Of a DNA stretch of 64,000 bases, positions 2-19,738 are shown piece by piece. Below the pieces are notes generated by a model. The model was not told where the DNA came from, made no database searches, and saw only the letters and a program-made list of their open reading frames with translations. Position 1 is the stretch's first letter, and the number at the start of each line of letters is the position of its first letter. This DNA is from Clostridia bacterium (GTDB taxonomy: Bacteria > Bacillota > Clostridia > Oscillospirales > Acutalibacteraceae), in assembly GCA_017409265.1 (NCBI GenBank), contig JAFQSY010000075.1, forward strand, positions 1 through 64,000, given 5' to 3'. Made by a program: the position numbers and the translations under genes.

Positions 2-1813
2 ATCGAAGAGCCCGAAACACCCGCAGATCCCAACGGCGGTACATTCGAAGGTTGGGAAGATGAAGACGGCGAAGAGGTTGAATTCCCCTACAACGTACCT
101 GACGAAGAGGATAAGGAAATCACCATCACTCCCGTATATCATTACACAGTAATTTACGATGCAGAGGGCGCAACAGTTCATACTGTTAAGAACAGAGCAG
201 GTTCAGACCTTGAAGTTCCCGAAGCTCCCGCAAAGGAAGGCTATAAGTTCATTATGTGGGCTGATGCTGACGGCAAGACTCCTGCTGATTATGCAACAAT
301 CCCCGAAAAGAACGTAACATTCAATGCTATTTACGAAGTAAGTGCTTACCAGATTTATTACTATGTAAACGGCGAACTTGTTGCTAACAAGTCAGCTGAA
401 TACGGTGAAACAATCGTAACAGGCGTTGATGCAGATGCAAAGAAGGTTAATATCCTTACTTACAGCACTCCCGAAGGCTATGAGTTCGACGGCTGGTACA
501 CAGATTCTGCAATGACAACCAAGCTTGCAGACGGTGCAACAGTTGGTGCTGCAAAGGTTTACCTCTACGCAAAGGAAACTGCAGGTACTTATGATGCAAC
601 CTTCATGGTAGACGACGAAGTTTATGAAACTGTTCCCACCGTTTACGGCAAGGAAATCGTTCTTCCCGAAGAACCCACCAAGGAAGGCTATACATTCCTC
701 GGCTGGACTCCCAATGCTATCATCATGGATGCCGAAGGCATGACCTTCGAGGCAACATGGGTTGAAACAGCAGGTGCTTACACAGCAACATACTATGTTG
801 ACGGTGAAATGTACGGCAAGCCCTTTGCAATGGCATACGGCGACGAGCTTGATGTTCCCGCTGATCCCGATAAGGAAGGCTACACCTTCGTTGGTTGGGC
901 AACCAAGTCGGATGCAACACCTGAAGAAGTAGTAGATCTTACCGGAGCAACAATGCCCGCACATGATGTTGAGTACTATGCAGTATTCACAATCAATAAC
1001 TACACCGTAAACTTCAACAACAACCTCGCTCTTGATGAATCACCCTACATGTCAGAGGAAACAGAAGTTTACTCAACAGATGATTACGATTATGCTGAAC
1101 CGGTAGTTATTCCTGCTGATCCCACTAACATCAACTCCGCATATTACACCTTCATGGGTTGGACAGATGTTAAGGGCGGCACAGAAGCAAAGTACACAGC
1201 AGAATCAGTTCTCCCGATGCCCGCAGACGACCTTGAACTCTATGCGGTTTACGAGAGAGTAGGCGTTAAGCTTATTCCCGGCGACGGTTCAACAACTGTT
1301 ATCGAGAGAGACGGCGTTAAGGAAAGCATCGCAGCCGGCAGTGTAACAAATGTACCTTACGATACCGAAGGCTACACAGATGAAGACTTCGATAAAGCAT
1401 GGTTTGTTTACGGTCTTAAGGAAGGTCTCACTCAAAAGACTTTTGAGGCCGGCAACTATGTAGCTGTTCAGGGTGACGGTGAAATCCGCATCACAGCTAA
1501 CAGAGGCCGTATGGGTACAGGCGCTGTTATCGAGGTATACGATAATGTTACCGGCGAAAGAGTAGAAAAATTCATTGTTATTATCTTCGGTGATCTTAAC
1601 GGTGATGCAAAGATTAGTAGCCCTGACAGTGGCTTGCTTAAGGATGAACTTTCAGATCCCTCTTGGTCAGCTACCAAGACGAGAGTTGAATACATGTTCA
1701 GAGCAGCTAATGTAAGCGGCGACAGAAAGGTTAGTTCGGCTGATAGTGGTAGACTTTCAGATGCAATCTCCAAGATAAAGACTATTGACCAGGTAACCGG
1801 TAAAGCTTCGTAA
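2..1813 (+). CDS. InlB-repeat surface protein with C-terminal dockerin-like domain (5' end outside window)
   Basis: The frame is open from the first bases of the window, so the true start lies upstream; about 603 residues are visible. The visible part holds about six InlB-B/Listeria-Bacteroides repeats, recognised by the ending EGYTFxGW and by yTaTYYVDGE-type first strands. A module around residues 420-530 follows (VKLIPGDGS, then GTGAVIEVYD). The C-terminus is dockerin-like, with two calcium loops, GDLNGDAKISSPD and ANVSGDRKVSSAD, about 45 residues apart. The last InlB unit (TNINSAYYTFMGW, YAVYERV) closely matches the last unit of the gene at 9155-19738, so the two are paralogues. Family knowledge: InlB-B repeats are beta-grasp stalk modules and dockerins bind cohesins. 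Role as a secreted surface protein is inferred. No LPXTG or SLH anchor is seen. Confidence 0.85.
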   Translation: MEEPETPADPNGGTFEGWEDEDGEEVEFPYNVPDEEDKEITITPVYHYTVIYDAEGATVHTVKNRAGSDLEVPEAPAKEGYKFIMWADADGKTPADYATIPEKNVTFNAIYEVSAYQIYYYVNGELVANKSAEYGETIVTGVDADAKKVNILTYSTPEGYEFDGWYTDSAMTTKLADGATVGAAKVYLYAKETAGTYDATFMVDDEVYETVPTVYGKEIVLPEEPTKEGYTFLGWTPNAIIMDAEGMTFEATWVETAGAYTATYYVDGEMYGKPFAMAYGDELDVPADPDKEGYTFVGWATKSDATPEEVVDLTGATMPAHDVEYYAVFTINNYTVNFNNNLALDESPYMSEETEVYSTDDYDYAEPVVIPADPTNINSAYYTFMGWTDVKGGTEAKYTAESVLPMPADDLELYAVYERVGVKLIPGDGSTTVIERDGVKESIAAGSVTNVPYDTEGYTDEDFDKAWFVYGLKEGLTQKTFEAGNYVAVQGDGEIRITANRGRMGTGAVIEVYDNVTGERVEKFIVIIFGDLNGDAKISSPDSGLLKDELSDPSWSATKTRVEYMFRAANVSGDRKVSSADSGRLSDAISKIKTIDQVTGKAS

Positions 1814-1827
1814 CTTAAAATATTTGA

Positions 1828-1857: not shown

Positions 1858-1895
1858 AAAACGCGATTTAACAGAATGATTTATTCTGAAGAGCG

Positions 1896-2067: not shown

Positions 2068-5000
2068 ATGAAATTAATCAAAAGGTCGGTTTCTGTTTTT
2101 CTTGCTGTTTTGATGATTTTCAGTTCCTTTTCCCTGCTTGCAACCGCTGCTGAAAGTGCAGTTGAGGATACCAATCCTATAACTACAAAAGCAGATTACA
2201 ACTGGGCAATCGATACTATTTTTTACAGACAGAAAAGAACAACAACCGGCGAAATCATTACAGACAATTGGATTCCAACTGAAAATGTAATGAAAGATGA
2301 AACTGTTAAAGCAAGAGTGTTTATGAAGACAGATTTCCCTCTTGCAAACTCACAGTTCTTCTTCTTATACCCTTCAAACTTCCTGACAATGGACGTAACA
2401 AACTGTCCTCCTACGTCAGGTGGTTATGAGTTACTTACTGGCGGAATCAACGGATTTGACGGTAACTTTGATTACAGCACAGAATGTGATGCAGTTTTCC
2501 AGGAAATGGTTGATGAAGGTTATCTTACAGAAGATGATATTATTGACCGTGGTTGGATTTATGTTAACATGGATACCGGCACAAGCCCCTATCAGCTTGA
2601 CGGTTCACAGTGGCTGTTTGAGTTTGAATTTACTGTTAATAAGGATGCAACCAATGTTGGCCAGCTTTATCTTTCAGCAGAATGTATTGCTGATAATGAT
2701 AAATATATGGGTAGAACCGATATTACAGCTAACCCTTACAATGATGATTATCAGGACGGCGATCTTTCCAGCTGGACAGATATGACCTTCGGCTATACTC
2801 TTAACGACACCGATGCCAACAGTACAATCGACCTTTACTCATCACTTACTTTTGATGCAGGCGAAGGTAAATTTGCTGACGGAACATCAACCTTCACAGT
2901 TGAAAACTATGAAGTTCAGGCAACAACACCTATTGATAACTTCCCCGGCGCTCCCGTGCTTGAGGGCGAAGAGTTCCTCGGTTGGGTTCCTGCTGAGAAG
3001 TATGATAATTATACCGCAGAAGACCTTATCAATGATGAGTATGTTTTAAAAGGTAATTACAACTATCAGCATGAAGAAGCAACCTATAAGGCTGTTTATA
3101 CAACAGAAAACACAGTAACAGTTAATGTTCATTACTATGATTTGGTTAAAAAAGAAGATGTTGTTGTTGATACCAATAAGTATGCAACAAAGACAGGTTA
3201 TGCAGTAGAGATTATCGCTGACGAAGATATCCCTGCTGAAATCCCTGCTGAAACAACATATATTGCATTCTCAAAGCTTCCTGCAATCGAACACTACAAG
3301 TTTGATTCAACTAATGCTTTGAATGTTCTTAAGGTTGAGAGCGCTGCTGAGAATGGCGCATCAACACTTGATGTTTACTATATTCCCGAAACATACACAG
3401 TAACATTCAATCCCGCTAACGGCGGTGCGGTTGCAACAAATTCTGATGTTGTCTATTACACAGAGCTTACTTCTCCTGCAGCTCCCGAAAAGAGTGGCTG
3501 GAAGTTCACAGAATGGCTTGGTGATGATGAAGATAAGTCAACACTTGGTGCAGAGCAGAAGTTCAATGTTACAGGCAACGTAAACTATGTTGCACAGTAT
3601 GAATCCGCTGAAACAACAGTAGCTGTTAAGGTTAAGTATACTGACCTTGCAAACAACAAAGAGGAAAAGATTGTTCCTCATACAACTGTTGATACAATCG
3701 CAGGCTACACAGTAGCTCTTGTTGAAACAGCAGGAGATGCAGAAAACACAACATATTATCTTATCAAAGATCTTCCCGTAATCGAACACTATGAGTATGA
3801 TGCAGATAGCACAACAACAACCGTAACGGCTGCTGCTGACGGCACATCAGAGCTCATTGTTGCTTACAAGCCTAAGAAGTATACTGCAACCTTCACAGGC
3901 GCAGAAACAATGGGTAATGTTGATTATTACACCGAGCTTACCGTTCCCGCAGGTCCCGTTGAAGACGGTAAGACCTTTGTTAAATGGGTAGGCAGCGACG
4001 GAACAGAGCTTGTTCCCGGAACAGCCGAAGCACCTGCAACATTTATCCTTAAGGGCGATGTAATTTATACTGCTGATTATAGTCTTAATACTTACAACAC
4101 AACACTCAGCTTCACAGGTGAAGCAGGTGTTGATTATCCCGTAACTGCAACTCTTCCCACAGTAAAACCCGGTAATATAGGTGATGAAATCGTTCTCAAC
4201 GATCCTGATCCCGTAACGGGCTGGGAATTCAACGGTTGGGATACACCCGTTGGTGCAGTTGAAAAGGACGGCAAGTATTATTACGGCACATCCGATGTAA
4301 CCGTTTCAGGTTCATGGACTCATACCGTATACTACATTAATTACTGGCTTGATGATGCAAAGACAATTCAGTATGGCGATACCGCTGAAGCTTACTATGA
4401 CGAACCCATTGAGCTTATTGACGGTCCCACAGAGAATGAACTTGCGCTTAGCGGAATTAACGGCAAGAAATTCAACGAATGGATTTGCGATTACACAGAA
4501 ATGCCTGCGGCAAATGTTGATGTTATTGCTGACCTCGAATCCATTTTGTATACAGTAAATGTCAGATATACTGATGGAACAACAGAGACTCTCTACCGTT
4601 ACTATGGCGAAGAGGTAACAATCGATGATCTTCCTGACATTGAAGATATCGAGGGTTATACCTTCTCAAGCTGGACCATCAACGGTAAGAAGAATGCAAC
4701 TCTTCCTTACAAAGTTGTAGGTACAACAAGTATTCTCGGTAATTTTGATATTCATAAGTGGGATCTTTATTACTGGATTGATGAGGATGCTTACAAAGCA
4801 TTCGATACAGAAAAAGCAGTTGAACCCATTATGCATGTTGAAGATTTAGATTATGGCTCGGAAATCCTCAATATTCCAGCTAACCCCGAAAAGGAAGGCC
4901 ATGTATTCACATCATGGGATACAGATCCTGTCGGAGCAGAGATGGGCGACGGAGATATGCACTTCTTTGCTTGCTGGAGACCGGAAACATACACCGTAAT

Positions 5001-8000
5001 CTGGGATAACGAAGGCGAAAAGGAAACAGTTGAAAACGTTCCTTACGGTTCGGTTCTCGAAATTCCTGCTCCCACAAAGACAGGCTACACCCTTAAGGGT
5101 TGGACCGGTCTTGAAATAGCTGAAGAAGGCGACACAACAATGCCTGATGTCGGCGATAATGGCGCAACAATTACTTACTATGCAGATTGGGAAGCTAATA
5201 AGTATCCTGTAACATTTAATGCAAACGGCGGTATCTTTGCTGATAACACAGATGAAAAGACAATTGAAGTTGCATACGGCGATACTATCAAAGCTCCCGA
5301 AATCCCCACCAGAAGCGGTTATGCATGGGGTGGCTGGAATCCTGCTGATCTCGGCACTATGGATACAACCGATGGCAAGAAGGTCTTCAATGCAACCTGG
5401 ATTGCAAGCGATGTTAATTACACAATCGAAACCTACATTATGGATACAGAAGGTAAATACGGTGATCCTACTGTTGAAACCAAGCCCAGCACAACAGATG
5501 CTAACGTATCCGTAACTCCTGAAATCAAGACAGGCTTCAAAGTTGACGAAGCAGCCAGCAAGCTTTCAGGTACAGTAGGTGTTGACGGATTAACTCTTAA
5601 GATTTACTACATCCGTGAACAGTATACTCTTAAAAAAGTTGTTGAAGATAAAACCACAACAACTATACTTTACTATGGTGCAAAGGTTTCACTTGAAGAG
5701 CCCGGAAAGACCGGTCACTCCTTCGGCGGTTGGACATGGACAAATGATGCAGACGAAACAGTAGCGGCTCCCGCAACAATGCCTGCATACAATGTAACAG
5801 CAACAGCATCGTTCACACCTAACACTCATAACGTTATCTATAAGGTAAACGGAGAAGTTTACCAGACAATTGAAAATGTTGCATACGGCACACAGGTAAC
5901 AGTAATTGCAAAGCCCGTTGAAACAGGTAAGACCTTCAGCGATTGGGATAAGACAGACTTTACAATGCCTGATGAAGACGTAATCATCAACTGTACAGCA
6001 ACAGTAAACACTCATGACGTTATCTATAAGGTAAACGGAGAGGTTTATAAGACAGTTGAAGACGTAGCATACGGCACACAGGTAACAGTAATTGCAAAGC
6101 CCGTTGAAACAGGTAAGACCTTCAGCGATTGGGATAAGACAGACTTTACAATGCCTGATGAAGACGTAGTTATCAACTGTACTGCAACAGTAAATACTCA
6201 CGACGTTATCTACATGGTAGGTAATGCTGAACACGCAAGAATTAAGGATGTTGCATACGGCACACAGGTAACAATCCTTGCTGACCTCAAAGAAGACGGC
6301 AAGACCTTCAGCGGCTGGACTATCAACGGCGTTAAGGCTGAAGACTTCACAATGCCCGACAATGATGTAACAATCGTTGGTTCATGGACAGTAAACGACT
6401 TCACAGTAACTTACTTCAAAGATAAGAATAAGACTGACGTTCATTACACCTACACAGGTGCATACGGTGCAGAATATAATGTTCCTGCAATCGACAAAGA
6501 AGGTCATGAATTCCTCGGTTGGTTCAATGCAGACGGTTCAGAAGCTAATCTTCCCGCTGCAGGAGAATTAACAACCGTTCCTCTCAATGGTGCAGTTTAC
6601 TATGCTGATTGGAAGGTAAACGAATACGAGCTTGTTTATAACGCAGGTGCAGGTAAGTTTGCAGACGGTAAGAACACCGTAACATTCAATACAGCTTACG
6701 GAACAGCTCAGGCTGATTGGAAAGTTCCTGAAGTACCCACAAGAGCAGGTTACACCTTCGGCGGCTGGAATGTCACCTCAACTGACACAATGCCCGCAAG
6801 CAAGAAGGTAATTACCGCAATATGGAATGCAATTCCTTACACAGTAACATGGATTAACGGCAGCCAGCAGATTGTTGACGATTACATCTATGGTAATGAA
6901 ATCATAGCTCCCGAAGAGCCCTCAAGAACAGGTTGGACATTCACCGGTTGGCTTGAAGCTGACGGCGTAACCTACTTCTCCGAAGGCGATGTAATGGGTG
7001 AAAAGAGCCTTGTTTATACCGCACAGTGGGAAGGCAACGAAGGCATCACTTATGAAATTTACAGATACTTTGCTCCCACAGAAGGAACAGAGTGGATGGA
7101 TTCAACTGAAGCTGAAAAGCTTTACGGCAAGCCCGGCATGACATCTCTTACAGGTAAGGCAGGCGAAACCGCAAAGGTTGACACAGCAGCTGAAGCAGTT
7201 GCAGGCTTCTACATTGACGAAGAGAACAGTATCCTTTCAAAGGAAATCGCCGGCAACGGCTCAACAGATCTCGTTATCTACTATCTTAGAGAGAAAGTTA
7301 ACGTAACTGTTAAGGATCCCGACGGCGAAACCTACTACGAAGGCGAAGTTGACTTCGGCGATGAAATCACAGTTCCCGATCCCGAGAAGGAAGGCCACGA
7401 GTTTGATAAGTGGGTTGACGAAGACGGCAACACCGTAACATTCCCGATGCCCGCTCCTTCAGAAGATATCGTTATCAAGCCCGTATGGACTGTTAACAAG
7501 TATGGCATCACATTCGTTGATGACAACGGTGATGTTATCCAGGCAACCAAGGAAGTTGAATACGGCAGCACAATCGTTGCTCCTGAAGATCCCAAGAAGG
7601 AAGGTTATAACTTCGCTTATTGGCGTGATAAGGAAACAAAGGCTGTAATGCCCGCAACAATGCCTGCAAAGGATGTAACTTACGAAGCATACTATACTGC
7701 AGGTGAAGATACCACATACTATATCGAAGTTTACATGATGGATACCAACGGCGAGTACACAATGGCTTCACAGACCATTGCTACAGGCACAACAGGTGAT
7801 CCCATCAGCATCACTCCGGGTACAGTTGAAGGCTGCACATATGATGCAACCAAGAGCGTACTTACAGGTATAATCACAGCAGAAGGAACAACCCTTAAGG
7901 TTTACTACGCGCGTAATAAGTACACAGTAACCTTCAATTCCGGCGACGGCGTATTTGCCGACGATGCAACAGTTGTAGGTCCCACATCTGTATACTTCGG

Positions 8001-9009
8001 TGCAGCGATCCCTGTTCCTGCTGCTCCCGCAAGAGAAGGCTATGACTTCACAGGCTGGGATAAGGAAGTTCCCGCAACAATGCCTGCTGATAATCTTACC
8101 TTCAATGCAACATGGACCGAAGCAGAGTACACAATCACTTATATCATTAATGATAAGAAGGAAGTTGTACCCTACAAGTTCGGCGCTGATGTTGCAACTC
8201 CTGATGAGCCCGTTGTTGAAGGCATGACATTCCTTGATTGGGATACAGAAATTCCTGTAACAATGCCTGCAAAGGATCTCATCATCATCGCTCTGTTTGA
8301 AACCGCTGTTTATAAGGTAACATTCATGATTGATGGCGAGGTTTATGAAGAAATCATGGTTAAGGCCGGTTCGGAAATTCCCGTACCTTCAGTAGAACCC
8401 ACCAAGGAATATCATGTATTTGCAGGCTGGCAGAATGTTCCCGCAACAATGCCCGCAAATGATATTGAAATCGAAGGCAAGTTCGACAGAGTTCCCGTTA
8501 AGCTTGTACCTTATGATGACAACGCAACAACCGTTATTGATGATGAAAATAAGGCTATCTACGGTCTTGCAGAAGACATGGAAGAAGGTCTTCTCCGCGC
8601 TGCATATCTCCGCGTTGAGGGCGACGGTTACTTCACCGTAACACCTTCAAAGGCTGCCAGCGGCAGAGTAATCTGCGGTACAGGTGCAGTTGTCAAGCTT
8701 TATGACCGTATGGGTACAGAAGACGAGTCAGACGACGTGCTTAAAGAAACTTACACAATCGTCATCTTCGGCGATCTTAACGGTGATGCACGAATCAGCA
8801 ATACTGACTACTCAATAGCTCAGGCTGAAGTTGATTGGATTACCACATGGTCAGATCCCATGAGTTCTGATTATAACCTTTACAAAACAATGGCTGCTGA
8901 CTTCAACGGCGACTCAATGATCAGCGTTGGTGAAGCATCAAGCATTGAAAGAGCTGTTCTTGGCACAGTTGATTTCGATCAGACAACAGGTACAGTTATT
9001 CGCGATTAA
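2068..9009 (+). CDS. Giant secreted InlB/MucBP-repeat protein with dockerin-like C-terminus (2313 aa)
   Basis: The ATG follows a good ribosome site (AAGGGAGG) and opens a signal peptide, MKLIKRSVSVFLAVLMIF..LLATAAE, residues 1-28. Residues of about 45-260 form a unique beta-rich domain (IFYRQ, VKARVFMKTDF) similar to N-terminal segments of the next gene's product. From about residue 265 to 2140 there are about 21 InlB-B repeats ending in GYxFxGW-like motifs and often followed by PATMPAxD. About five MucBP-like units ending in YYxRE or YYxPE are interspersed. A pre-dockerin module (VKLVPYDD, CGTGAVVKLYDR) leads to loops GDLNGDARISNTD and ADFNGDSMISVGE. The second loop has Glu instead of Asp at position 12. 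The product is strongly acidic. It is probably a secreted stalk or scaffold-attached protein; ligand unknown. No other anchor motif is seen. Confidence 0.85.
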   Translation: MKLIKRSVSVFLAVLMIFSSFSLLATAAESAVEDTNPITTKADYNWAIDTIFYRQKRTTTGEIITDNWIPTENVMKDETVKARVFMKTDFPLANSQFFFLYPSNFLTMDVTNCPPTSGGYELLTGGINGFDGNFDYSTECDAVFQEMVDEGYLTEDDIIDRGWIYVNMDTGTSPYQLDGSQWLFEFEFTVNKDATNVGQLYLSAECIADNDKYMGRTDITANPYNDDYQDGDLSSWTDMTFGYTLNDTDANSTIDLYSSLTFDAGEGKFADGTSTFTVENYEVQATTPIDNFPGAPVLEGEEFLGWVPAEKYDNYTAEDLINDEYVLKGNYNYQHEEATYKAVYTTENTVTVNVHYYDLVKKEDVVVDTNKYATKTGYAVEIIADEDIPAEIPAETTYIAFSKLPAIEHYKFDSTNALNVLKVESAAENGASTLDVYYIPETYTVTFNPANGGAVATNSDVVYYTELTSPAAPEKSGWKFTEWLGDDEDKSTLGAEQKFNVTGNVNYVAQYESAETTVAVKVKYTDLANNKEEKIVPHTTVDTIAGYTVALVETAGDAENTTYYLIKDLPVIEHYEYDADSTTTTVTAAADGTSELIVAYKPKKYTATFTGAETMGNVDYYTELTVPAGPVEDGKTFVKWVGSDGTELVPGTAEAPATFILKGDVIYTADYSLNTYNTTLSFTGEAGVDYPVTATLPTVKPGNIGDEIVLNDPDPVTGWEFNGWDTPVGAVEKDGKYYYGTSDVTVSGSWTHTVYYINYWLDDAKTIQYGDTAEAYYDEPIELIDGPTENELALSGINGKKFNEWICDYTEMPAANVDVIADLESILYTVNVRYTDGTTETLYRYYGEEVTIDDLPDIEDIEGYTFSSWTINGKKNATLPYKVVGTTSILGNFDIHKWDLYYWIDEDAYKAFDTEKAVEPIMHVEDLDYGSEILNIPANPEKEGHVFTSWDTDPVGAEMGDGDMHFFACWRPETYTVIWDNEGEKETVENVPYGSVLEIPAPTKTGYTLKGWTGLEIAEEGDTTMPDVGDNGATITYYADWEANKYPVTFNANGGIFADNTDEKTIEVAYGDTIKAPEIPTRSGYAWGGWNPADLGTMDTTDGKKVFNATWIASDVNYTIETYIMDTEGKYGDPTVETKPSTTDANVSVTPEIKTGFKVDEAASKLSGTVGVDGLTLKIYYIREQYTLKKVVEDKTTTTILYYGAKVSLEEPGKTGHSFGGWTWTNDADETVAAPATMPAYNVTATASFTPNTHNVIYKVNGEVYQTIENVAYGTQVTVIAKPVETGKTFSDWDKTDFTMPDEDVIINCTATVNTHDVIYKVNGEVYKTVEDVAYGTQVTVIAKPVETGKTFSDWDKTDFTMPDEDVVINCTATVNTHDVIYMVGNAEHARIKDVAYGTQVTILADLKEDGKTFSGWTINGVKAEDFTMPDNDVTIVGSWTVNDFTVTYFKDKNKTDVHYTYTGAYGAEYNVPAIDKEGHEFLGWFNADGSEANLPAAGELTTVPLNGAVYYADWKVNEYELVYNAGAGKFADGKNTVTFNTAYGTAQADWKVPEVPTRAGYTFGGWNVTSTDTMPASKKVITAIWNAIPYTVTWINGSQQIVDDYIYGNEIIAPEEPSRTGWTFTGWLEADGVTYFSEGDVMGEKSLVYTAQWEGNEGITYEIYRYFAPTEGTEWMDSTEAEKLYGKPGMTSLTGKAGETAKVDTAAEAVAGFYIDEENSILSKEIAGNGSTDLVIYYLREKVNVTVKDPDGETYYEGEVDFGDEITVPDPEKEGHEFDKWVDEDGNTVTFPMPAPSEDIVIKPVWTVNKYGITFVDDNGDVIQATKEVEYGSTIVAPEDPKKEGYNFAYWRDKETKAVMPATMPAKDVTYEAYYTAGEDTTYYIEVYMMDTNGEYTMASQTIATGTTGDPISITPGTVEGCTYDATKSVLTGIITAEGTTLKVYYARNKYTVTFNSGDGVFADDATVVGPTSVYFGAAIPVPAAPAREGYDFTGWDKEVPATMPADNLTFNATWTEAEYTITYIINDKKEVVPYKFGADVATPDEPVVEGMTFLDWDTEIPVTMPAKDLIIIALFETAVYKVTFMIDGEVYEEIMVKAGSEIPVPSVEPTKEYHVFAGWQNVPATMPANDIEIEGKFDRVPVKLVPYDDNATTVIDDENKAIYGLAEDMEEGLLRAAYLRVEGDGYFTVTPSKAASGRVICGTGAVVKLYDRMGTEDESDDVLKETYTIVIFGDLNGDARISNTDYSIAQAEVDWITTWSDPMSSDYNLYKTMAADFNGDSMISVGEASSIERAVLGTVDFDQTTGTVIRD
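5823..6194 (+). repeat. Tandem 186-bp duplication inside the giant gene
   Basis: Two copies, 5823-6008 and 6009-6194, are nearly identical over a 186-bp period, exactly one 62-residue InlB-type module (HxVIYKVNGEVY, VAYGTQVTV, GKTFSDWDKT). A third, more diverged unit of the same phase starts at 6195. The low divergence indicates recent in-frame module duplication. Confidence 0.9.
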
Positions 9010-9056: not shown

Positions 9057-9154
9057 AGGAAAGATAAATCCGATATTATTTAGAGCAGAGGGTGCAATCT
9101 GTTCTATGGTTTGCCTGTTTTTTTCGGGCAGATACAAATCAAGGAGGATATCTC

Positions 9155-12100
9155 ATGAAATTAACAAAAAGGTTAGTTGCTGTTGCCTTAGCGATACTGA
9201 TGATTTTTGGCTCATTTTCAGTTGCGATGACCGCAAGTGCGGTCGATGGTACAACATTGGGTATCACAACGAAAATCCTCAGAAACGTTAATAATGCTTG
9301 GATTGAAACAGATAAAGTATTAGCCGGCGAAGATGTAAAATTAGGTGTTTATCTTGACACCGATTATTACGCCGGTGACGGCAACATTTTGTTGTTCTTT
9401 AACAACAATTTTTTTGAAACAACAACAGGTACAACACAGCAGACCCTCACCATTGGTGATACATATAAGGAAGGCACAAGCTACGATATAACCGGTTATT
9501 ATTATATCGGTGCAGGTTTACAGGCTTCAACTGCTGAAAATGCCATGCTTAACTACGGAAAAATTGACAGCGATTATGCAGATGCCCATGAGCCTATATA
9601 TATCAGCTACAAGTTCGGAGAAGATGCCGAAACACAGAAGTTTGACGGCAAAAAGCTTTTCTGCGAAATTCCCCTTAAGGTAAAAAAAGATGCTCCCGCT
9701 GCAGTTGAAGGCTATGGCGAGGCTAAAAAAGAAACAACTGCTTCAACAGACTTCACACGAGGCAGAATTAACGTCATGAAAGGCGAAGCTGGCGGTTATC
9801 CCGAAGAAGCAGTTGATATGTGGAATTGGGATGCAAATCCTGTTTATGAGAGAAAGCCCGTAACCCTTTTCACCAACTGCACAGCTGCATCATTTGATGC
9901 AGACGGCGGTGTGCTTTATTCAGTAACAGACAACGAAGGCAATGTTACCAACTATGATATTCTTTACACAGAAGGCGAAGCAGGAGAGAAGTTTGAGAAC
10001 CTTGTTACCGAAGACGGAGCAAAGGTTGTAACAACTCTTCCCAGCCCCACCAAAGAAGGCTATACCTTTGAAGGTTGGAAGGTAGTCGGTGCTGATGATT
10101 CAACAGCATCAAAGGTTACCGTTTATCCCGAAGCAGACACAGATTATGTTGCTGTCTGGAAGCAGATTGAGGTTGTAGGCAACGAGCTTACCTTCAGAAC
10201 CGAAATCTACAGACAGGATGAAAACGGCAATTGGGTTAAGACCGAAAAGGTTAAGCCCGGCGAAGAAGTTAAGGCTAGACTTTTCATTGATACCGGATAT
10301 CTTGCCGGTGACGGTGACATCATCTTATTCTATGACGGCGATTTCTTTGAGGACAGCTACGAATCAGAGACGGAATATGACCTCAACAAGGAATATGACT
10401 TCAAATTCAATGAGGAATACAGTTCTGATGATAAAAAAATGTTCAACCAGAGCGCAACTGGCGCACCTGCAGCCTATGGACTGACAGGTAAGATGATTAA
10501 GCCTGACGACTCAAACGATGTTATTGAGGATTTGATAGCTGATGAATATATCACATCAAGTTTCTTCGGTCAGCATCCTGCATTAATTGCAAAGTATGAG
10601 TTCCCCGTTGGCTCAAATTGCCAGGTTATCAGCGGCAACGAATGGTTCGTTCAATTTGACCTTAAGGTTAAAGATAATGCCGTTGATGAAGGTGATTTCT
10701 ACATTGTTCCCGAAACAATCGCACAGCCCGGCGAACAGTACTATGCATACATCAACATTCCCATGAGATCTGAAGACAGCGATCTTGCGATGAACGCTGA
10801 TCATATGATGCTTTGGGAAGCTGATATCGAAATCTACAGCACCCCCGTAAGCATTTATAACACAATCACATTCAACGCAAACGGCGGTGAATTTGCAGCT
10901 GACGATACAGAAAATTATGTTATCAGCGGCACTGTCGGCGAAGCAGTGGATTATTCAACAATCCCCGAAATCTCAAGACCCGGCTGGACCTTCATGGGTT
11001 GGATTGATGCATCAGACGATACTCCCACTCTTGAAGAGGCTATGACTGCAGATGAGCTTCCCGCAACAATGACCTATAAGTCAGATAATAAGGATGAGAC
11101 AAAGCTCATTTATAATGCATTCTGGGTAAGCGAAGTTGATATCACCTTCAAGGGAATCAATCCCGAAGATGAAACCGCTTACGAGATCGAAACAATTCCC
11201 GTAACAGCAGGCGAGCCCTTCGTTACTCCTGCAACACCCGAGCTTGCTGGCTATCGCTTTGTCGGTTGGACAACAGAAGTAACATGGAATGATCAGGGCA
11301 AGCTTGTTATTGGCTCTGTTCTTCCGAAGCTTCCCGAGAAGTATCCGACAGTTGACACAACCTATTATGCTATCTTTGATTCAAATGCATATCCTGTCAA
11401 CTATTATGTTCTCGATGCAGATATTGAGAATCCCACACTTGCTGATTTTGAGCTTGTTGCAGAGCTGAATATTGAATATAATACAGTAATCCCCGCAACA
11501 CCTCACGGCTATACTGCTCCTGAAGGCTATGTTCTTTCAGTTGCTTACACAGATGTTTCCTATGCAGATACAATCGTATTTGCAGATGCAAATATGTTTG
11601 TTGCAGGAACAACAATGCCCGCAAGCGAATATAACCTCTATTATAAACTTGAAAGAGGCGAATTTGAGGCTGTATTTGATGCAAACGAAGGCGCATGGGC
11701 AGACGGCGAAACAACGAAGACTGTTTCCGCCCGTTTTGAAGATGCAATCGTTGCTCCCGAAGCTCCTGCTCGCGAAGGCTATGTATTCGCAGGTTGGGAA
11801 CCCAACGTTCAGGTAATGGACGAAGAAGGCAAGACCTTCAAGGCAACATGGAATCCCGATGAGTTCACAGCAACATATTATGTTGACGGTGAACAATACG
11901 GCAAGGCATATGATATCCTCTTCGGCGACGAAATGGATATTCCTGCCGACCCCTATAAGGAAGGCCATGAATTCAAGGGCTGGGCAGATTCAGCAGAGTC
12001 AACAACTCCCGTTGCTATTCCTGCAACAATGCCCGCAAATGATGTAAACTACTACGCTGTATTTGAAGCAATCGAATACACAATCAAGTTTGCAGATACA

Positions 12101-15100
12101 GGCGATGAAACAATTGCTGATATCACTCTTCCCTACGGTACTGAAATCGTTGCTCCCGAAGATCCCACCAGAGAAGGCTACACCTTCAAGGGTTGGGCTG
12201 AAACAAAGAGTGCAACAGCAGATGCAAAGGTAGAGCTTCCCGCAACGATGCCTGTTACACCCAAGCCCGACGGAAAGACCTATTACGGAATCTGGGAAAT
12301 CAACGAGTATACCGTAACATGGATTGTTGACGGCAACGAAACAGTTGTTCCCTACAAATATGCAACGCCTGTCATTAAGGTAGATAATCCCTCAAAGACA
12401 GGTTACACCTTCACAGGCTGGTCACCCGAATTCCCCGAAGAGGGTATGGCAATGCCTGCAAAGGATCTTGAGTTTACAGCAGTATTTACTGCAAACACAT
12501 ACAATGCACTCTTCTTAACCAAAGCTGATGACGAAACTCATGACGGTAGATTCGACAGCGATGATTCAACAGTAATCGTAGTTCCCACCGTATTCAACGA
12601 AAAAATTGTTGCTCCTGCTGAAGTTCCTGTAAGAACAGGTTATACCTTCGCAGGCTGGGATCCCATCGTTGGTGCAATGGACGAAGAAGGCAAGGAATAC
12701 TACGCAGTATGGACTCCCAACGCTGATACAAAGTATACCGTTGAGTTCTATTCAATGGATACAGCAGGTGATTATAAACTCACAGATACACAGACAAGAA
12801 CCGGTACATCCGATTCAGTTATCGACCTTATAATCAGTGCTCCCACAAACTATAAGATTGATAAAGTAAAGAGCACATATGATGACGGTGTCACAATCGC
12901 AGCTGACGGTTCAACAGTAGTAACCGTTTACTTTGAGAGAGATCTCTTCACAATCGCTTTCGACGGTAACGGCGGTACAGTTAACGGCGTAGCATCAGAA
13001 AGCGATGCAAAGCGTTACGGTGCAGCAGTTGCAGTTCCCGTAGTTGAAAGAGAAGGTTATACATTCACAGGCTGGAAGGATGCTGAAGGCAAAGATGTTG
13101 ATGTTAACCTTACCGCAATTGAGAACGTAACTTATATTGCACAGTGGGAAATCAATCAGTACACAATTACCTTCGAAACCGTAGGCGGTACTGAAATTGC
13201 TCCCATCAAGCAGGATTATGCAACAGCAGTTACAGCTCCTGCAGATCCCACAAAGCTTGGTCACACATTCGCAGGCTGGGATAAGGAAATTCCCTCAACA
13301 ATGCCTGCAGAAGATATGACTATCACAGCACAGTGGACTCCTAACATCTATGATGCAACCTTCGACGCAGGCGACGGCAAGTTTGCAGATGATTCAACTA
13401 TCGCAACAGTTCCCGGCGTAACATTCGGAGAAGATATTACAGCTCCCACAGAAAAGCCCGAAAAAGAAGGCTATACATTCACAGGCTGGCTTGATGCAGA
13501 CGGCAACCCCGTAGGCACAATGGATGCAGAAGGCAAGGCATTCTTTGCACAGTGGGAAATCAACCAGTACACAATCACCTTTGATACAAAGGGCGGTACT
13601 GAAATTGCTCCCATCAAGCAGGATTATGCAACAGCAGTTACTGCTCCTGCTGATCCCGAGAGGGAAGGCCATACCTTCGCAGGTTGGGATGTAGAGGTTC
13701 CCTCAACAATGCCCGCGGAAGATATAACAATCACAGCAAAGTGGGATGTTAATCCTTATGATGCAATCTTCGATGCAGGCGAAGGTGTATTCGAGTCAAC
13801 AGGCGTTGCAACAGAAACCGTTCCCGTTGATTATGATACAGCTATCACCGCTCCTGACGAAGAGCCTACAAAGACCGGCTATACCTTCGCAGGTTGGGAA
13901 GATGAAGACGGCAACATCATCTCCGCAGGTGCAAACGCAGGCAAGATGGATGCTGACGGAGAAACCTTCACAGCAACATGGACTCCCAACGAAGATACAG
14001 AGTACACAGTAATTGTCAAGGATGTCGATACAGACGCTGTACTCAAAGAAGTCCTCAAGACAGGTACAACCGACAACGCTATTGAAGTTGTTGAATCTGT
14101 TCCCGATCCTGCAGCAGACAAGACAGAGTATGTTCTCTTTGAAGATGTAGATGTCAATGGATATCACCTCTTTGAAAATGCTGCTAATGATCTTACAGGC
14201 AAAACCGTTGCTCCCGATGGCTCAACAGTTGTAACTCTTTACTATGCAGTAACCGAGTATACAGTTGTTTATGATGCAAACGGCGGTGCTTATGCAGACG
14301 GAACCAAGGAAATTTCAAAGGTTCTTCCTTACGGTGCATCAACATCGGCAAACGCTCCCATCGCTCCCACAAGAGAAGGCTACACCTTCGATAAGTGGCT
14401 CGGTAATCCCACAGTTCCCGAAAACGGAACAACAATGAGAGCTAATTGGACTCCCAACAAGTATACAATTAATTGGGATACCAACGGTGAAGTAGCTGAA
14501 GGCACAATCAAAGAAGAGTATGAATATACTGCTCTTATCAACAAGAAGGTAGCTGATCCAAGAGAAGGCTACAAATTCGTTGAATGGGTAGATGAGAATG
14601 GTGTTGCAATCACCATTCCCGACAATATGCCCGCAAAGAATCTCACTATCATCGCTAAATACGAGTTAGAGAGCTTCACAATCAACTTCAATTCAAACGG
14701 CGGCTCAGCAGTTGATCCCATTACACAGGATTACGGCACAACCATCAAGGCTCCCGCAGATCCCACCAAGGAAGGCTATAAGTTTGAAGGCTGGTCACCC
14801 GACCTTCCCACAACAATGCCCGATCTCGGTGAAACAGGCGATTCAACAACCGTTACCGCACAGTGGTCAAAGAACAGCTACAATGTTAACTACTTTGTAA
14901 AGAATCCTGAAACAGGCAAGTTCGGCGAAGCAGTTGCAACAGCAACAGTTGCTTACGAAGATCCTATTTCAACTGTATTCACTTACAAAGCTCCCACAGG
15001 TTACTCACTTGTTGCCGTAGCTTACACAGACACAGATCTCACAGCTCCTCTTGCAACAGGTGTAACAATGCCCGCAAACGATGTAAATCTCTACTATGAC

Positions 15101-18100
15101 GTAATTGCAAACGAATATGATGCAATATTCAATGCAAATGACGGCGCATGGGCAGACGGCGAAAAGTCAAAGACTGTTAAGGCTGCATATAACGATGTTA
15201 TCAAAACTCCTGCAGATCCTTCAAGAACCGGCTATGAGTTCGCAGGTTGGGATCCCGTTGTTGGTACAATGAATGCCGAAGGCAAGACCTTTGAAGCAAA
15301 ATGGGAACCCAAGACCTATACCGTAACTTATAAGGCAAACGGCGGCGCATGGGGCAAAGACGAAGCAATGGAAACAACCAAGACATTTGATGTTGTTTTC
15401 GGCACAGCAGTAACAGCTCCCGATGCCGATCCCACAAGAACGGGCTACAACTTCAAGGGCTGGGATAATAAAGCTCCCGCAACAATGCCTGCTGAAGACC
15501 TCGTATTTACAGCTCAGTGGGAAATCAAGACAGCAAAAGTAATCTTCAAGAACGGTGACGAAACAGTTAAGACTGTTTCCGGCAACTACGGCGATGCTGT
15601 TGAAGCTCCCGCAGATCCCGTTAAGGAAGGCCACACCTTCAAGGGTTGGGATAAGACAGTTCCCGCAACAATTCCCGAAGCTGATGTAACTATCAATGCA
15701 ACATGGGAAAAGAACTCCTATGATGTAATCTGGAGTGTTGATGGCGTAACAACAATCATTAAGGATGTTCCTTATGACACCGTAATTGATAAGTCAAAGG
15801 CTCCTGCAACCGAAAAGGTTGGTTATGACTTTACAGGCTGGAACGGCTACACAGACGGCATGAAGATGCCTGCTAACGATGTAACCTTCACAGCAGCCTA
15901 TACTCCCAAGACCTTCACCGTAACATTTGATGCTAACGGAGGTGCATGGGATAACGGCGATACAGAACAGACTGTTACAGACGCTTACGGTGCAGAGCTT
16001 AAGGCTCCCGTAGCTCCCGGCAGAACAGGCTACACCTTCCAGACATGGTCACCTTCAGTTCCCACAACAATCCCTGCTGAAAATGCAACATATAAGGCAA
16101 TCTGGACAACTGCAGGTAAGGTTGACTACACAGTAGAAACCTATTACATGAATACCGTAGGAACATATGACGAGGTTGATCCCGTTGTAACAGGCGGTAC
16201 CGCAACAATCGATGCATATGTTAAGATTCCCGTAGACACAGCTCCTGAAGGCTTCACTTATGATGCTGATGAAGCTAACTACATCGAAGGTGTTGTAAAG
16301 GGCGACGGCTCAACGGTATTCAAGGTATACTACGAGAGAAACACTTACACAATCAAGTTCGTTGGTAATGAAGGCACAATCAACGGCACCCCCGAACAGA
16401 GTGCAGATTATTACTACGGAACAACAGTTGTTGAACCCGTACCTGTAAGAACAGGCTACAACTTCATCGGTTGGGCAGATGCTGCTGAAAACGGCAACAA
16501 AGTTGCAGTCGAAGTAACAGCTATTGCAGATGCTACTTACTACGCACAGTGGGAAGAAGCAACTTATACCGCAACTTTCAAGGCACTTCCCGGTGCATTT
16601 GAAGATGGTGAAACAACCGACACAACAGAGTTTGTTTACGGCAATGCAATCGCAGAGCCCGCAGATAAGCCTGTAAGAGACGGTTATACCTTTGATAAGT
16701 GGGTTGACGAAAAGACAGGCAAGACTCCTGCTGAACTCGGTACAGAAGTTGCTGACGATGTAACCTTCATCGCAACATGGAATGAGATTTACTACGACAT
16801 AGTATTCTATACCGATGAAACTCTTGATGCTGCAACAGCAACAACAATCAGAGTTCTTTACAACGGTGAATACAGCATTCCCATTGATCCTGAAAAGACA
16901 GGTTACAGCTTTGCAGGCTGGAACAAGGTTATTGACGGCGAAGCATCAAATCTTTCCGGCAATCTTGGCATAGCAGGCTCAAAGAAGATAAAGGATACTC
17001 TTGGCAAGGAAGAATATTACGCAACATGGGATGTAAACGATGTTAACCTTGTTTATATGTCAAACGGCGGTATATTTGCTGACGATTCAAACAGAATCAC
17101 TTATAAGGTTCCCTTCGGAACACCTAAGGCTGACATGCCTGTTCCTGAAGAACCCACAAGAGAGGGCTATACCTTCAATAACTACAACATTGAGCTTCCT
17201 GCAACAATGCCCGCAACTCCGGTTAACCTTCTTGCACAGTGGACTGCAAACGAATATGACGTAGTATTCGATGCAGGCGAAGGCGTATTTGATAACGGTA
17301 CTGAAGATACTTCAGATGACGTTCCCACAAGAACAGAAGATGTTATCTATGAACAGCAGTCTGCATTTGCTCCCGATGAAGAGCCTGTAAGACCCGGTTA
17401 TGAATTTGGCGGTTGGACAGACGGCGAAAACACCTACTATCCCGGCGAAGAAATTCCCATGGTAGCAGATGATGTTAAGCTTGATGCTGTCTGGACTGCA
17501 GTTGATTCAGCTTACACAGTTAACCACATCTACATGGATGTAAACGGCACTTATGACGATGCAGAAGTTGTTACTGAAAACCTTACAGGTACAACAGACA
17601 CAACAGCAACTGCAACCGAGAAGGCAAAGGATAACTTCACATTTGATGCAGCTGCATCAACAGTTGAAGGCACTATCACAGGTGACGGTAAGCTTACTCT
17701 TGAACTCTATTATGTACGCGAAAAGAACACCGTAACCATCTATGATAAAGACGGCAACGTTCTTGATACAGAAGAAGTTTACTTCGATGCTCCTCTCAAC
17801 GTTGAAAATCCCACCAAGGAAGGCTACACCTTCGCAGGTTGGACAGATGCTGAAGACAACCCCGTAGATGTTCCCGCAACAATGCCTGGCGATAAGCTTG
17901 ACATTTACGAGAGCTGGACACTTAACAGCTATGACGTAACATTCGATGCAAACACAGGCGCATGGGCAGACGGCGATAAGGTCAAGACTGTTGAAACAAA
18001 CTATGGCTCAGCAGTAACAGCTCCTGCAACTGATCCTATTAAGGCAGGCCATACCTTCAAGGGTTGGTTTGATGCAAAGGAAAACGGCAACTCCGTTGAT

Positions 18101-19738
18101 ACTTACACATCAATGCCTGAACTTGCAGAAGGCGAAACACTTACCTTCTATGCAAGATGGGAAGCAAACAAGAACGATTACACAATCGAGATTTATGAAA
18201 TGAATCCCGACGGAACAATGCCCACAGAGCCTACCTCAATGGTAATTAACAATGCTCTTGTTGGTGAAACGGTTAAGGCGAATGTAACAGTTCCCGCAGG
18301 CTTCACTCTTGACGAAGCAAACAGCGAGCTCGAAGGTGTTGTTCCTGAAGAAGGCGAGCTTGTTCTTAAGGTTGTTCTTGTAAGAGCTCCTCATAAGTTC
18401 ACAGCAATCGTTGACGGCAAAGCAATTGTTGACAGTGTTGAATATTACTTTGACCAGACAGTTGTACAGGTTGCAACTCCCACAAAGGACGGCTACACCT
18501 TTGCAGGTTGGTCAACAACAGCACCGGGCGGTATAATTGAAGAAGGTGCAGTTGCTGATACAGTTTATCCCGCAAGAATGCCCAACAACGATGTTACAAT
18601 CTATGGCGTATGGTCAACCAACAGCTATAATGCAATATTCGATGCAGGCAACGGTATGTTCCAGAACGGAACAGAGGATCCGGCAGACGATAAGCCTGTT
18701 GTATCAACACCCGTAGCTTTCGGCGATAAGATTTATGCTCCCACAGAGGTTCCTGTTCAGGAAGGCTTTGAGTTCGGCGGCTGGAAGGATAAGGACGGTA
18801 ACGTTCACGAACCCGGCGCTGAAGTCGGAACAATGGGTAAGGACGGCGCAAGCTTCGAGGCAGTATGGAATAAGTCAAGCTTCACAGCAACATTCTATGG
18901 CTATGAAGCACTCGCAGAAACACCCTATAAGTCAGAAAATGCAACAATGATGATCGGCGGCGAGCCCAAGACTTATGCTTACGGCGAAACAATCGAATTC
19001 CCTGCAGCTCCTACAAATATTGATGACAGATACTATACCTTCATTGGCTGGTCAAAGACTGAAGGCGGCAAAGCTTTGACAAATTCAGAGCTTTTCACCC
19101 AGACAATGCCTGCTGAAGATGTAATCTACTACGCTGTTTATGAGCGTGTAAAGGTTCAGCTTATCCCCAATGATGATGCTGATTATTGGACCAATAACGG
19201 TCTTGCATGCTCAACAGTTATCGACAGAGCCGGCGGCACAGTTGATGATTACGATGAAGCAACAAGCACATGGTATGTATACGGTCTTACCGACAGAATG
19301 ACCATTGATGCACGAAGAGATGAAAAGAGACCTGATACTTATGTTGATGTCAGCGGCGACGGTTACTACAAAGTTGTTGATTACAAGGTAAGAGAAGGCT
19401 CTGTTGGTACAGGTACCGTAATCGAAGTCTACGATAGAAACGAAACCCAAGATACTTCCGACGACATTCTTGTTGAAAGCTTCTGGATTATCGTTTACGG
19501 CGATCTTAACGGCGACGGCGCAATTTCCAATACTGACTATTCAATTGCACAGGCTGAAGTAGCTCAGGATACAAGCTGGAGCTATACGTTCTCACCTGAA
19601 TATTGCCACTATAAGGCAAAGGCTGCAAACATAAGCGGTGATAACAACTTCTCCATTACTGACGCAGCTCAGATCAACTACTTCGTACTTGGTACAGTTG
19701 ATATCAATCAGGCAACAGGTTGCGTAACATCCAAATAA
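9155..19738 (+). CDS. Giant secreted InlB/MucBP-repeat protein with dockerin-like C-terminus (about 3527 aa)
   Basis: The frame opens at 9092, but the ATG at 9155 has AAGGAGG eight bases upstream and begins the signal peptide MKLTKRLVAVALAILMIF..TASA, so it is chosen. Two related N-terminal domains follow (TKILRNVNNAWIETDKVLAG and TEIYRQDENGNWVKTEKVKPG, each with AGDG(N/D)I(L/I)LF(F/Y)). About 33 InlB-B repeats with about five interspersed MucBP-like units make up most of the protein. The end has VKVQLIP, GTGTVIEVYDR, then dockerin-like loops GDLNGDGAISNTD and ANISGDNNFSITD. The first loop continues YSIAQAEV exactly as in the 2313-residue neighbour, suggesting the same binding partner. Expected mass is near 380 kDa. 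It is probably an extracellular surface component; function unknown. A terminator follows at 19753. Confidence 0.85.
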   Translation: MKLTKRLVAVALAILMIFGSFSVAMTASAVDGTTLGITTKILRNVNNAWIETDKVLAGEDVKLGVYLDTDYYAGDGNILLFFNNNFFETTTGTTQQTLTIGDTYKEGTSYDITGYYYIGAGLQASTAENAMLNYGKIDSDYADAHEPIYISYKFGEDAETQKFDGKKLFCEIPLKVKKDAPAAVEGYGEAKKETTASTDFTRGRINVMKGEAGGYPEEAVDMWNWDANPVYERKPVTLFTNCTAASFDADGGVLYSVTDNEGNVTNYDILYTEGEAGEKFENLVTEDGAKVVTTLPSPTKEGYTFEGWKVVGADDSTASKVTVYPEADTDYVAVWKQIEVVGNELTFRTEIYRQDENGNWVKTEKVKPGEEVKARLFIDTGYLAGDGDIILFYDGDFFEDSYESETEYDLNKEYDFKFNEEYSSDDKKMFNQSATGAPAAYGLTGKMIKPDDSNDVIEDLIADEYITSSFFGQHPALIAKYEFPVGSNCQVISGNEWFVQFDLKVKDNAVDEGDFYIVPETIAQPGEQYYAYINIPMRSEDSDLAMNADHMMLWEADIEIYSTPVSIYNTITFNANGGEFAADDTENYVISGTVGEAVDYSTIPEISRPGWTFMGWIDASDDTPTLEEAMTADELPATMTYKSDNKDETKLIYNAFWVSEVDITFKGINPEDETAYEIETIPVTAGEPFVTPATPELAGYRFVGWTTEVTWNDQGKLVIGSVLPKLPEKYPTVDTTYYAIFDSNAYPVNYYVLDADIENPTLADFELVAELNIEYNTVIPATPHGYTAPEGYVLSVAYTDVSYADTIVFADANMFVAGTTMPASEYNLYYKLERGEFEAVFDANEGAWADGETTKTVSARFEDAIVAPEAPAREGYVFAGWEPNVQVMDEEGKTFKATWNPDEFTATYYVDGEQYGKAYDILFGDEMDIPADPYKEGHEFKGWADSAESTTPVAIPATMPANDVNYYAVFEAIEYTIKFADTGDETIADITLPYGTEIVAPEDPTREGYTFKGWAETKSATADAKVELPATMPVTPKPDGKTYYGIWEINEYTVTWIVDGNETVVPYKYATPVIKVDNPSKTGYTFTGWSPEFPEEGMAMPAKDLEFTAVFTANTYNALFLTKADDETHDGRFDSDDSTVIVVPTVFNEKIVAPAEVPVRTGYTFAGWDPIVGAMDEEGKEYYAVWTPNADTKYTVEFYSMDTAGDYKLTDTQTRTGTSDSVIDLIISAPTNYKIDKVKSTYDDGVTIAADGSTVVTVYFERDLFTIAFDGNGGTVNGVASESDAKRYGAAVAVPVVEREGYTFTGWKDAEGKDVDVNLTAIENVTYIAQWEINQYTITFETVGGTEIAPIKQDYATAVTAPADPTKLGHTFAGWDKEIPSTMPAEDMTITAQWTPNIYDATFDAGDGKFADDSTIATVPGVTFGEDITAPTEKPEKEGYTFTGWLDADGNPVGTMDAEGKAFFAQWEINQYTITFDTKGGTEIAPIKQDYATAVTAPADPEREGHTFAGWDVEVPSTMPAEDITITAKWDVNPYDAIFDAGEGVFESTGVATETVPVDYDTAITAPDEEPTKTGYTFAGWEDEDGNIISAGANAGKMDADGETFTATWTPNEDTEYTVIVKDVDTDAVLKEVLKTGTTDNAIEVVESVPDPAADKTEYVLFEDVDVNGYHLFENAANDLTGKTVAPDGSTVVTLYYAVTEYTVVYDANGGAYADGTKEISKVLPYGASTSANAPIAPTREGYTFDKWLGNPTVPENGTTMRANWTPNKYTINWDTNGEVAEGTIKEEYEYTALINKKVADPREGYKFVEWVDENGVAITIPDNMPAKNLTIIAKYELESFTINFNSNGGSAVDPITQDYGTTIKAPADPTKEGYKFEGWSPDLPTTMPDLGETGDSTTVTAQWSKNSYNVNYFVKNPETGKFGEAVATATVAYEDPISTVFTYKAPTGYSLVAVAYTDTDLTAPLATGVTMPANDVNLYYDVIANEYDAIFNANDGAWADGEKSKTVKAAYNDVIKTPADPSRTGYEFAGWDPVVGTMNAEGKTFEAKWEPKTYTVTYKANGGAWGKDEAMETTKTFDVVFGTAVTAPDADPTRTGYNFKGWDNKAPATMPAEDLVFTAQWEIKTAKVIFKNGDETVKTVSGNYGDAVEAPADPVKEGHTFKGWDKTVPATIPEADVTINATWEKNSYDVIWSVDGVTTIIKDVPYDTVIDKSKAPATEKVGYDFTGWNGYTDGMKMPANDVTFTAAYTPKTFTVTFDANGGAWDNGDTEQTVTDAYGAELKAPVAPGRTGYTFQTWSPSVPTTIPAENATYKAIWTTAGKVDYTVETYYMNTVGTYDEVDPVVTGGTATIDAYVKIPVDTAPEGFTYDADEANYIEGVVKGDGSTVFKVYYERNTYTIKFVGNEGTINGTPEQSADYYYGTTVVEPVPVRTGYNFIGWADAAENGNKVAVEVTAIADATYYAQWEEATYTATFKALPGAFEDGETTDTTEFVYGNAIAEPADKPVRDGYTFDKWVDEKTGKTPAELGTEVADDVTFIATWNEIYYDIVFYTDETLDAATATTIRVLYNGEYSIPIDPEKTGYSFAGWNKVIDGEASNLSGNLGIAGSKKIKDTLGKEEYYATWDVNDVNLVYMSNGGIFADDSNRITYKVPFGTPKADMPVPEEPTREGYTFNNYNIELPATMPATPVNLLAQWTANEYDVVFDAGEGVFDNGTEDTSDDVPTRTEDVIYEQQSAFAPDEEPVRPGYEFGGWTDGENTYYPGEEIPMVADDVKLDAVWTAVDSAYTVNHIYMDVNGTYDDAEVVTENLTGTTDTTATATEKAKDNFTFDAAASTVEGTITGDGKLTLELYYVREKNTVTIYDKDGNVLDTEEVYFDAPLNVENPTKEGYTFAGWTDAEDNPVDVPATMPGDKLDIYESWTLNSYDVTFDANTGAWADGDKVKTVETNYGSAVTAPATDPIKAGHTFKGWFDAKENGNSVDTYTSMPELAEGETLTFYARWEANKNDYTIEIYEMNPDGTMPTEPTSMVINNALVGETVKANVTVPAGFTLDEANSELEGVVPEEGELVLKVVLVRAPHKFTAIVDGKAIVDSVEYYFDQTVVQVATPTKDGYTFAGWSTTAPGGIIEEGAVADTVYPARMPNNDVTIYGVWSTNSYNAIFDAGNGMFQNGTEDPADDKPVVSTPVAFGDKIYAPTEVPVQEGFEFGGWKDKDGNVHEPGAEVGTMGKDGASFEAVWNKSSFTATFYGYEALAETPYKSENATMMIGGEPKTYAYGETIEFPAAPTNIDDRYYTFIGWSKTEGGKALTNSELFTQTMPAEDVIYYAVYERVKVQLIPNDDADYWTNNGLACSTVIDRAGGTVDDYDEATSTWYVYGLTDRMTIDARRDEKRPDTYVDVSGDGYYKVVDYKVREGSVGTGTVIEVYDRNETQDTSDDILVESFWIIVYGDLNGDGAISNTDYSIAQAEVAQDTSWSYTFSPEYCHYKAKAANISGDNNFSITDAAQINYFVLGTVDINQATGCVTSK
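13143..13958 (+). repeat. 408-bp two-module duplication in the giant gene
   Basis: The segments 13143-13550 and 13551-13958 are in-frame direct repeats with a 408-bp (136-residue) period. Each carries one QYTITF..GGTEIAPIKQDYATAVTAPADP unit and one YDAxFDAGxG unit. The first unit is almost identical at DNA level in both copies; the second has drifted. It shows expansion by pairs of modules, unlike the single-module duplication in the upstream gene. Confidence 0.8.

Follow-up and report, generated by a model that had tools for sequence, protein, structure and literature searches.

Giant InlB-repeat proteins with divergent cohesin-like heads and dockerin-like tails: candidate parts of a non-enzymatic surface fibre in a Clostridia bacterium

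Three consecutive genes at the start of a contig from a Clostridia bacterium encode giant InlB-repeat stalks that end in a dockerin-like tail, and both complete proteins begin with divergent cohesin-like heads. With moderate confidence, we propose that these proteins (A, B and C) are parts of a non-enzymatic cohesin–dockerin surface fibre, in which the tails would dock onto a wall-anchored paralogue and possibly onto sister stalks. A more elaborate form of this idea is a self-assembling, calcium-dependent and non-covalent pilus, linked head to tail, with stalks of up to 3500 residues, that branches from a sortase-anchored cohesin stalk and carries no enzymes. We regard this form as tentative. 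Cohesin–dockerin docking is known mainly as the way in which anaerobes gather enzymes, and its parts are best known from cellulose-digesting machines. Here, by contrast, genes B and C place one kind of module at each end of giant stalks without a detected enzyme domain. We file the system under the cohesin–dockerin kind, and not as a cellulosome. Should docking be confirmed, the result would be a modular surface fibre made without covalent polymerisation, and a divergent group would prove to escape standard cohesin searches.

The window that we analysed covers the first 64 kb of contig C71 (G000:C71), from a 2.5 Mb genome that is assembled in 91 contigs and is 80% complete. The open reading frame listing contains the three consecutive plus-strand paralogues described in the original prediction, with frames at 2-1813, 2068-9009 and 9092-19738. 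The contig starts within gene A (2..1813, +), whose N-terminus is therefore outside the assembly; the 3′ part that is present is open at the first base of the contig and encodes 603 residues of an InlB-repeat protein with an X-module and a dockerin. Gene B (2068..9009, +) encodes 2313 residues, with one cohesin-like head, 17 Flg_new stretches, an X-module and a dockerin. Gene C (9155..19738, +) has two cohesin-like heads, 31 Flg_new stretches and the same kind of C-terminus. Its open frame, 9092-19738, would give 3548 residues if counted from a GTG, and the most likely start, judging from the sequence, is the ATG at 9155 behind AAGGAGG, giving 3527 residues. The lengths originally proposed, 2313 and about 3527 residues, are thus both recovered. 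By eye, the N-termini of B and C resemble signal peptides. A Pfam-A scan and inspection by eye agree with the earlier claim that LPXTG and SLH are absent from the A, B and C proteins, and no enzyme domain was found in the giant stalk proteins.

The stalks consist of tandem Flg_new repeats that score over the Pfam-A cut-off for the InlB B-repeat family (PF09479), with E-values of 8.8e-43, 8e-94 and 1.9e-204 in A, B and C. Pfam-A resolves 5, 17 and 31 Flg_new/InlB stretches respectively; the InlB-repeat arrays are real, and the counts first suggested for B and C (about 21 and 33) are higher than these. The MucBP-like units that were thought to be interspersed among the repeats fared less well. 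Eight irregular units were selected between repeats, three from B and five from C, and two of these match MucBP (PF06458), with E-values of 0.01 and 0.23, both below the cut-off. We have therefore set MucBP aside as a defining part of the system.

The dockerin fold of the tails is well supported. The X-module and dockerin occupy 1256..1810 in gene A (dockerin 1589-1759), 8488..9006 in gene B (dockerin 8770-8955, below the Pfam cut-off) and 19145..19735 in gene C (dockerin 19496-19678), all on the plus strand; in gene A the assignment comes from profile matches and an alignment of the calcium loops. In a protein scan with Dockerin_1 the three C-termini fall under the cut-off of 22.9 bits (20.4, 12.7 and 17.6 bits). 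When the whole genome is searched, two of these tails pass, of which one does so only if its neighbours are counted, and the third reaches an E-value of 0.007. We aligned 31 C-termini taken from the window and from 11 named relatives and found a conserved module of about 110 residues followed by the dockerin. We call the former an X-module because it precedes a dockerin. Dockerin_1 matches 30 of the 31 tails at E 0.1, and a profile made from the tails finds solved dockerins, the best being a double dockerin in a chain labelled serine protease (2.1e-7) and the next a scaffoldin dockerin (2.6e-7). The two calcium-loop-helix motifs of dockerin type I (PF00404) are present: ligand positions 1, 3, 5 and 12 are kept in loop 1 of all 31 tails and in loop 2 of 24, and the same pattern at any other offset occurs in at most 3 of 31. 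For the gene C tail, the 14 best PDB matches of an AlphaFold model (pLDDT 91.3) are all dockerin chains, at a probability of at least 0.99, though the best E-value is 1.4e-3 and none reaches 0.001. The same PDB search gave no confident structural match for the X-module; Ruminococcus flavefaciens X-dockerin chains appear among the matches only at a probability of 0.20-0.25. The dockerin-like C-termini with calcium loops noticed at the outset are thus borne out by ligand conservation and by the model, with a borderline Pfam match.

The heads were overlooked in the original prediction, which had read the repeats and the dockerin ends correctly. They are non-repeat N-terminal domains of about 215-235 residues, one in gene B (2194..2853, +) and two in gene C (9242..9892, + and 10172..10882, +); the first two are placed by profile matches, and the first gene C head also by a head tree. 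The third, which is the second head of gene C and one of three in the window, was modelled with AlphaFold (pLDDT 94.2, pTM 0.90). A Foldseek search of the PDB with this model gave 770 matches at E 10, of which 40 reach E 0.001. The 50 matches listed are all cohesins or cohesin-bearing chains, with a best E-value of 3.0e-6, and they include the R. flavefaciens ScaE cohesin and a Clostridium perfringens cohesin-like module, as well as chains 4fl4, 3kcp and 2o4e, which we take to be cohesins. TM-scores against the listed matches reach 0.72 by target length and are 0.35-0.48 by query length; the head is longer than standard cohesins, and its docking face may be altered as a result. In the model, helices are inserted between strands at 48-54 and 137-143, for which reason we read the head as a divergent, elaborated cohesin. 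We consider this modelled fold the decisive evidence for cohesin identity, and divergent cohesins are a well-supported reading of the N-terminal heads in the window.

Direct sequence proof of cohesin homology failed for the heads of the window itself. None of them matches Pfam Cohesin (PF00963) over the cut-off, a PDB sequence search with the heads returned nothing at E 10, a profile–profile comparison of heads and cohesins gave a probability of 10%, and an HMM trained on 17 cohesins of relatives that passed the threshold scores the three heads at 5.8, 4.9 and 2.0 bits. This failure is answered by the fold and by intermediates in relatives, which connect the heads to PF00963. Pfam Cohesin matches coincide with head matches at eight places in relatives (G018:C10, G032:C37, G019:C27, G021:C9, G028:C72, G013:C212, G022:C12 and G014:C40), at E-values from 1.3e-4 to 0.08, and only that of G018 is over the cut-off, with neighbours counted; at G028:C72 the two matches are adjoining pieces of one domain. 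When 40 head sequences are searched alone, 6 match Cohesin (best E 0.0016), and no other Pfam family matches as many as two of them. The HMM reaches 8 bits or more in 30 of 61 heads; among the controls this score is reached by 3 of 1240 shuffled copies, by none of 62 reversed copies and by none of 323 other segments of the head-bearing proteins. A Cohesin match was part of the reason for fetching six loci (L105, L106, L107, L111, L112 and L124); without these the count is 24 of 54 heads. Among the 62 regions the L103 head appeared twice, and the duplicate was dropped here, giving 61, but kept in the head tree.

It had been suggested that the full genome be searched for a cohesin scaffoldin. 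A PF00963 search of the genome, which is 80% complete, finds no cohesin even at E 0.1, and a scaffoldin of the classical kind was accordingly rejected; divergent heads are present instead. There are five of these, in B, in C (C1 and C2) and on contigs C33 and C65, the last being weak. The C33 protein (L058) has 2637 residues, with a head (E 2.5e-23), an InlB stalk and a tail reading IPDTG...KKK; three sortase matches are present in the genome. By its tail motif the protein is a candidate wall-anchored cohesin-like scaffoldin. The earlier view of long stalks fixed non-covalently by dockerins fits these data, although it had missed both the C33 paralogue with its sortase-like tail and the layout of cohesin-like and dockerin modules at opposite ends. 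What that view depended on, a cohesin-like domain and loops able to bind calcium, has counterparts in the predicted cohesin fold of the gene C head and in the conserved calcium ligands.

Six frames of the genome bear a dockerin (profile A6). In addition to A, B and C, these are on contigs C23 (L064:8184-13787), C31 (L136:1825-7056) and C69 (L137:3328-8460), and encode secreted-looking, dockerin-ended proteins of 1710-1867 residues. The C23 protein has no Pfam domain besides the dockerin at E 0.001. Dockerin frames of similar length recur in many genomes of the genus. At E 10 Dockerin_1 has one extra match in the genome, with an E-value of 0.45, inside an InlB-repeat frame of C49, and this is probably due to chance. 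No dockerin-bearing enzyme was seen among the six frames, in a genome that is 80% complete and with a domain scan covering C23 among the three further proteins.

The same head kind is found with more than one kind of tail. We surveyed 46 head-bearing ORFs in the fetched loci, which were selected by matches and so do not make up a random sample; 9 lack their 3′ end and 37 are complete. Of the complete ones 22 have a dockerin tail, 9 a sortase-like tail (defined as [IVN]P.TGS, a hydrophobic stretch and a lysine-rich end) and 6 another: 3 of an FFxK type (L107 included), 2 of a WWQ type and 1 that is none of these. That one kind of head is joined to either a dockerin or a sortase-like signal is as expected if the dockerin is an attachment device.

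Judging from profile searches, the head family is nearly confined to one genus. The head profile matches in 31 of 37 genomes of the genus, some of these weakly, and in 0 of 23 genomes of other families. In a draw of 295 genomes from the order, heads were found in two, namely the genome studied here and one of another genus in the same family. We therefore rejected a wide spread of the heads. Viral contigs showed no relative when scanned with patterns taken from the second of the gene C heads, and a virus origin was likewise rejected.

Eleven named relatives, all MAGs called 'Clostridia bacterium RGIG', were found by a query with the second head of gene C. Their sources are the colon, cecum or rectum of buffalo, goat, sheep and deer. 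All 11 have a two-headed gene C with a dockerin-like tail, and in seven (L125, L126, L127, L129, L132, L133 and L135) a one-headed gene B lies upstream of it; in the other four the gene immediately upstream of C ends in a dockerin and is cut by the start of the contig. Breaks of the contig inside the upstream dockerin-ended gene are seen in several genomes (G000:C71, G022:C12, G032:C37 and others), as is expected from the long repeats.

A tree of the heads (62 rows) groups 12 of 13 C1 heads, 12 of 13 C2 heads and 6 of 7 B heads, and the exceptions are all from L091. Several joins of this tree are weak or lie on long branches, and some joins may be false. Both heads of the two-headed L095 and L097 proteins fall with those of the L091 C protein, with support of 100/99 for head 1 and 93/91 for head 2. 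The L095 and L097 proteins have a sortase-like tail and, directly upstream on the same strand, a dockerin-ended gene. The tail of L091 is seen in part, as its stretch ends inside the first dockerin loop.

The gene next to C (19830..21998, minus strand) is convergent with it and, by domain scan, encodes a GH89 alpha-N-acetylglucosaminidase (NAGLU). A similar-ending ORF is at this position in 7 of the 11 named relatives, which are those whose locus reaches that far, the domain scan being of the window copy. The GH89 protein has no obvious signal peptide by eye and no Dockerin_1 match at E 0.001. An adjoining GH89 gene is compatible with mucin glycans as a target, and contact of the fibres with mucus or host, as first proposed, is a guess, given the weak MucBP matches.

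We propose the following mechanism for the fibre. The proteins would be secreted, and a stalk of the C33 type, anchored in the wall with its cohesin head facing outward, would take up the tails of A, B and C, whose dockerins would be loaded with calcium. The heads of B and C, which would now be distal, might then receive further tails, either from A, B and C or from the C23, C31 and C69 proteins, and with two heads the gene C protein could branch the fibre. Heads left free at the tip may hold a ligand.

Alternatively, the cohesin-fold heads could be adhesin tips for host or dietary ligands, while the dockerin alone anchors the protein to a cohesin outside the assembly. They are N-terminal, distant from the tail and carry long insertions, their subtypes diverge strongly, and heads are also borne by proteins with sortase-like tails, as in classical adhesins. 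However, the genome has no Pfam cohesin at E 0.1, so its dockerins would lack a known partner unless the heads serve as one, and the listed structural matches of the head are modules known for dockerin binding. On balance we think adhesin tips rather unlikely. Some relatives do carry classical cohesins (PF00963); these could be the true dockerin partners, which counts against docking onto the heads. A related difficulty is that G003 (81% complete), G006 (100%) and G017 (91%) have a dockerin match without a head at E 0.01, and these 3 of the 25 genus genomes with a dockerin search have no Pfam cohesin at E 0.1 either. This implies that at least one dockerin class is independent of the heads, or that its partner is too divergent. 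Counts of dockerins and heads per genome were set aside, because both occur on the same proteins.

The same three genomes could be taken to mean that the tails are vestigial, calcium-stiffened caps without a partner, as could the incomplete ligand set of loop 2 in 7 of 31 tails. Loop 1 is nevertheless kept in all 31, and dockerin and sortase-like signals both serve as tails behind the same head kind, which makes such caps the least probable reading. It is also improbable, if a little less so, that the proteins are a scaffold like a cellulosome or mucinolysome, whose heads recruit dockerin-bearing enzymes. The mucinolysome of Limousia has a wall-anchored N-terminal cohesin together with dockerin-ended cohesin scaffoldins (PMC12997984), and the GH89 gene adjoins gene C. 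Against this, the dockerin frames found in the 80% complete genome are A, B, C and the three proteins of 1710-1867 residues, of which the one scanned, C23, shows no other Pfam domain at E 0.001, and the GH89 protein gives no Dockerin_1 match at that threshold. A non-enzymatic surface fibre is thus the reading that we prefer.

Several known systems resemble this arrangement in part. The Listeria InlB B-repeat or Flg_new surface proteins use the same stalk repeat family (PF09479). To our knowledge these are without cohesin and dockerin ends. In R. flavefaciens a sortase-anchored cohesin, ScaE, receives the X-module-dockerin of a binding protein, CttA, and this pairing of cohesin and adhesin has extreme mechanical stability; CttA differs from our proteins in carrying cellulose-binding modules (PMC4266597). 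The ScaE cohesin is among the structural matches of the second gene C head, whereas the X-module here is without a confident structural match. We know of no InlB stalk in CttA. The cohesin-like modules of C. perfringens glycoside hydrolases (2jh2, 2w1n) are a further likeness, as they have a non-cellulosomal cohesin fold and come from a gut clostridium. They differ in being parts of enzymes and in interacting pairwise with one another (PMC12997984).

The Limousia system is another close parallel. It belongs to a gut anaerobe, its scaffoldins cSca1, cSca2 and cSca5 combine cohesins with a C-terminal dockerin, and a wall-anchored LPxTG protein whose N-terminus carries a cohesin is predicted to bind those dockerins; the cohesins of the system were found by the Pfam model, and it has dockerin-bearing enzymes (PMC12997984). 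In contrast, the proteins described here have divergent cohesin-like heads and giant InlB stalks, and no dockerin enzyme was found in the incomplete genome. A literature search, with preprints and most subscription journals outside its reach, returned no paper that joins 'dockerin' with a Flg_new, Listeria-Bacteroides-repeat or InlB-B-repeat term, though cohesin, dockerin, InlB and repeat co-occur in three.

Some further features of these protein families were recorded. A short, amphipathic-looking tail of the FFxKIxxFFxxLF type is found on head or InlB proteins of L094, L106 and L107 and of the genome itself (L059, L060 and L061), and is possibly an undescribed surface anchor. A C-terminal tail of the WWQxxIRIxLLGFxWY type recurs in L100, L124 and the genome itself (L062:4464-7787). 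On contig C42 of the same genome, the ends of two neighbouring genes (L063:4786-10371 and 10459-15060) carry copies of the repeat GRCWPSLRNDLLPAGYY. Finally, L096:4516-13794(+) and L104:6754-15939(+) are open frames that exceed 3000 codons and lie on the opposite strand from gene C; they are probably a composition effect of the repeats.
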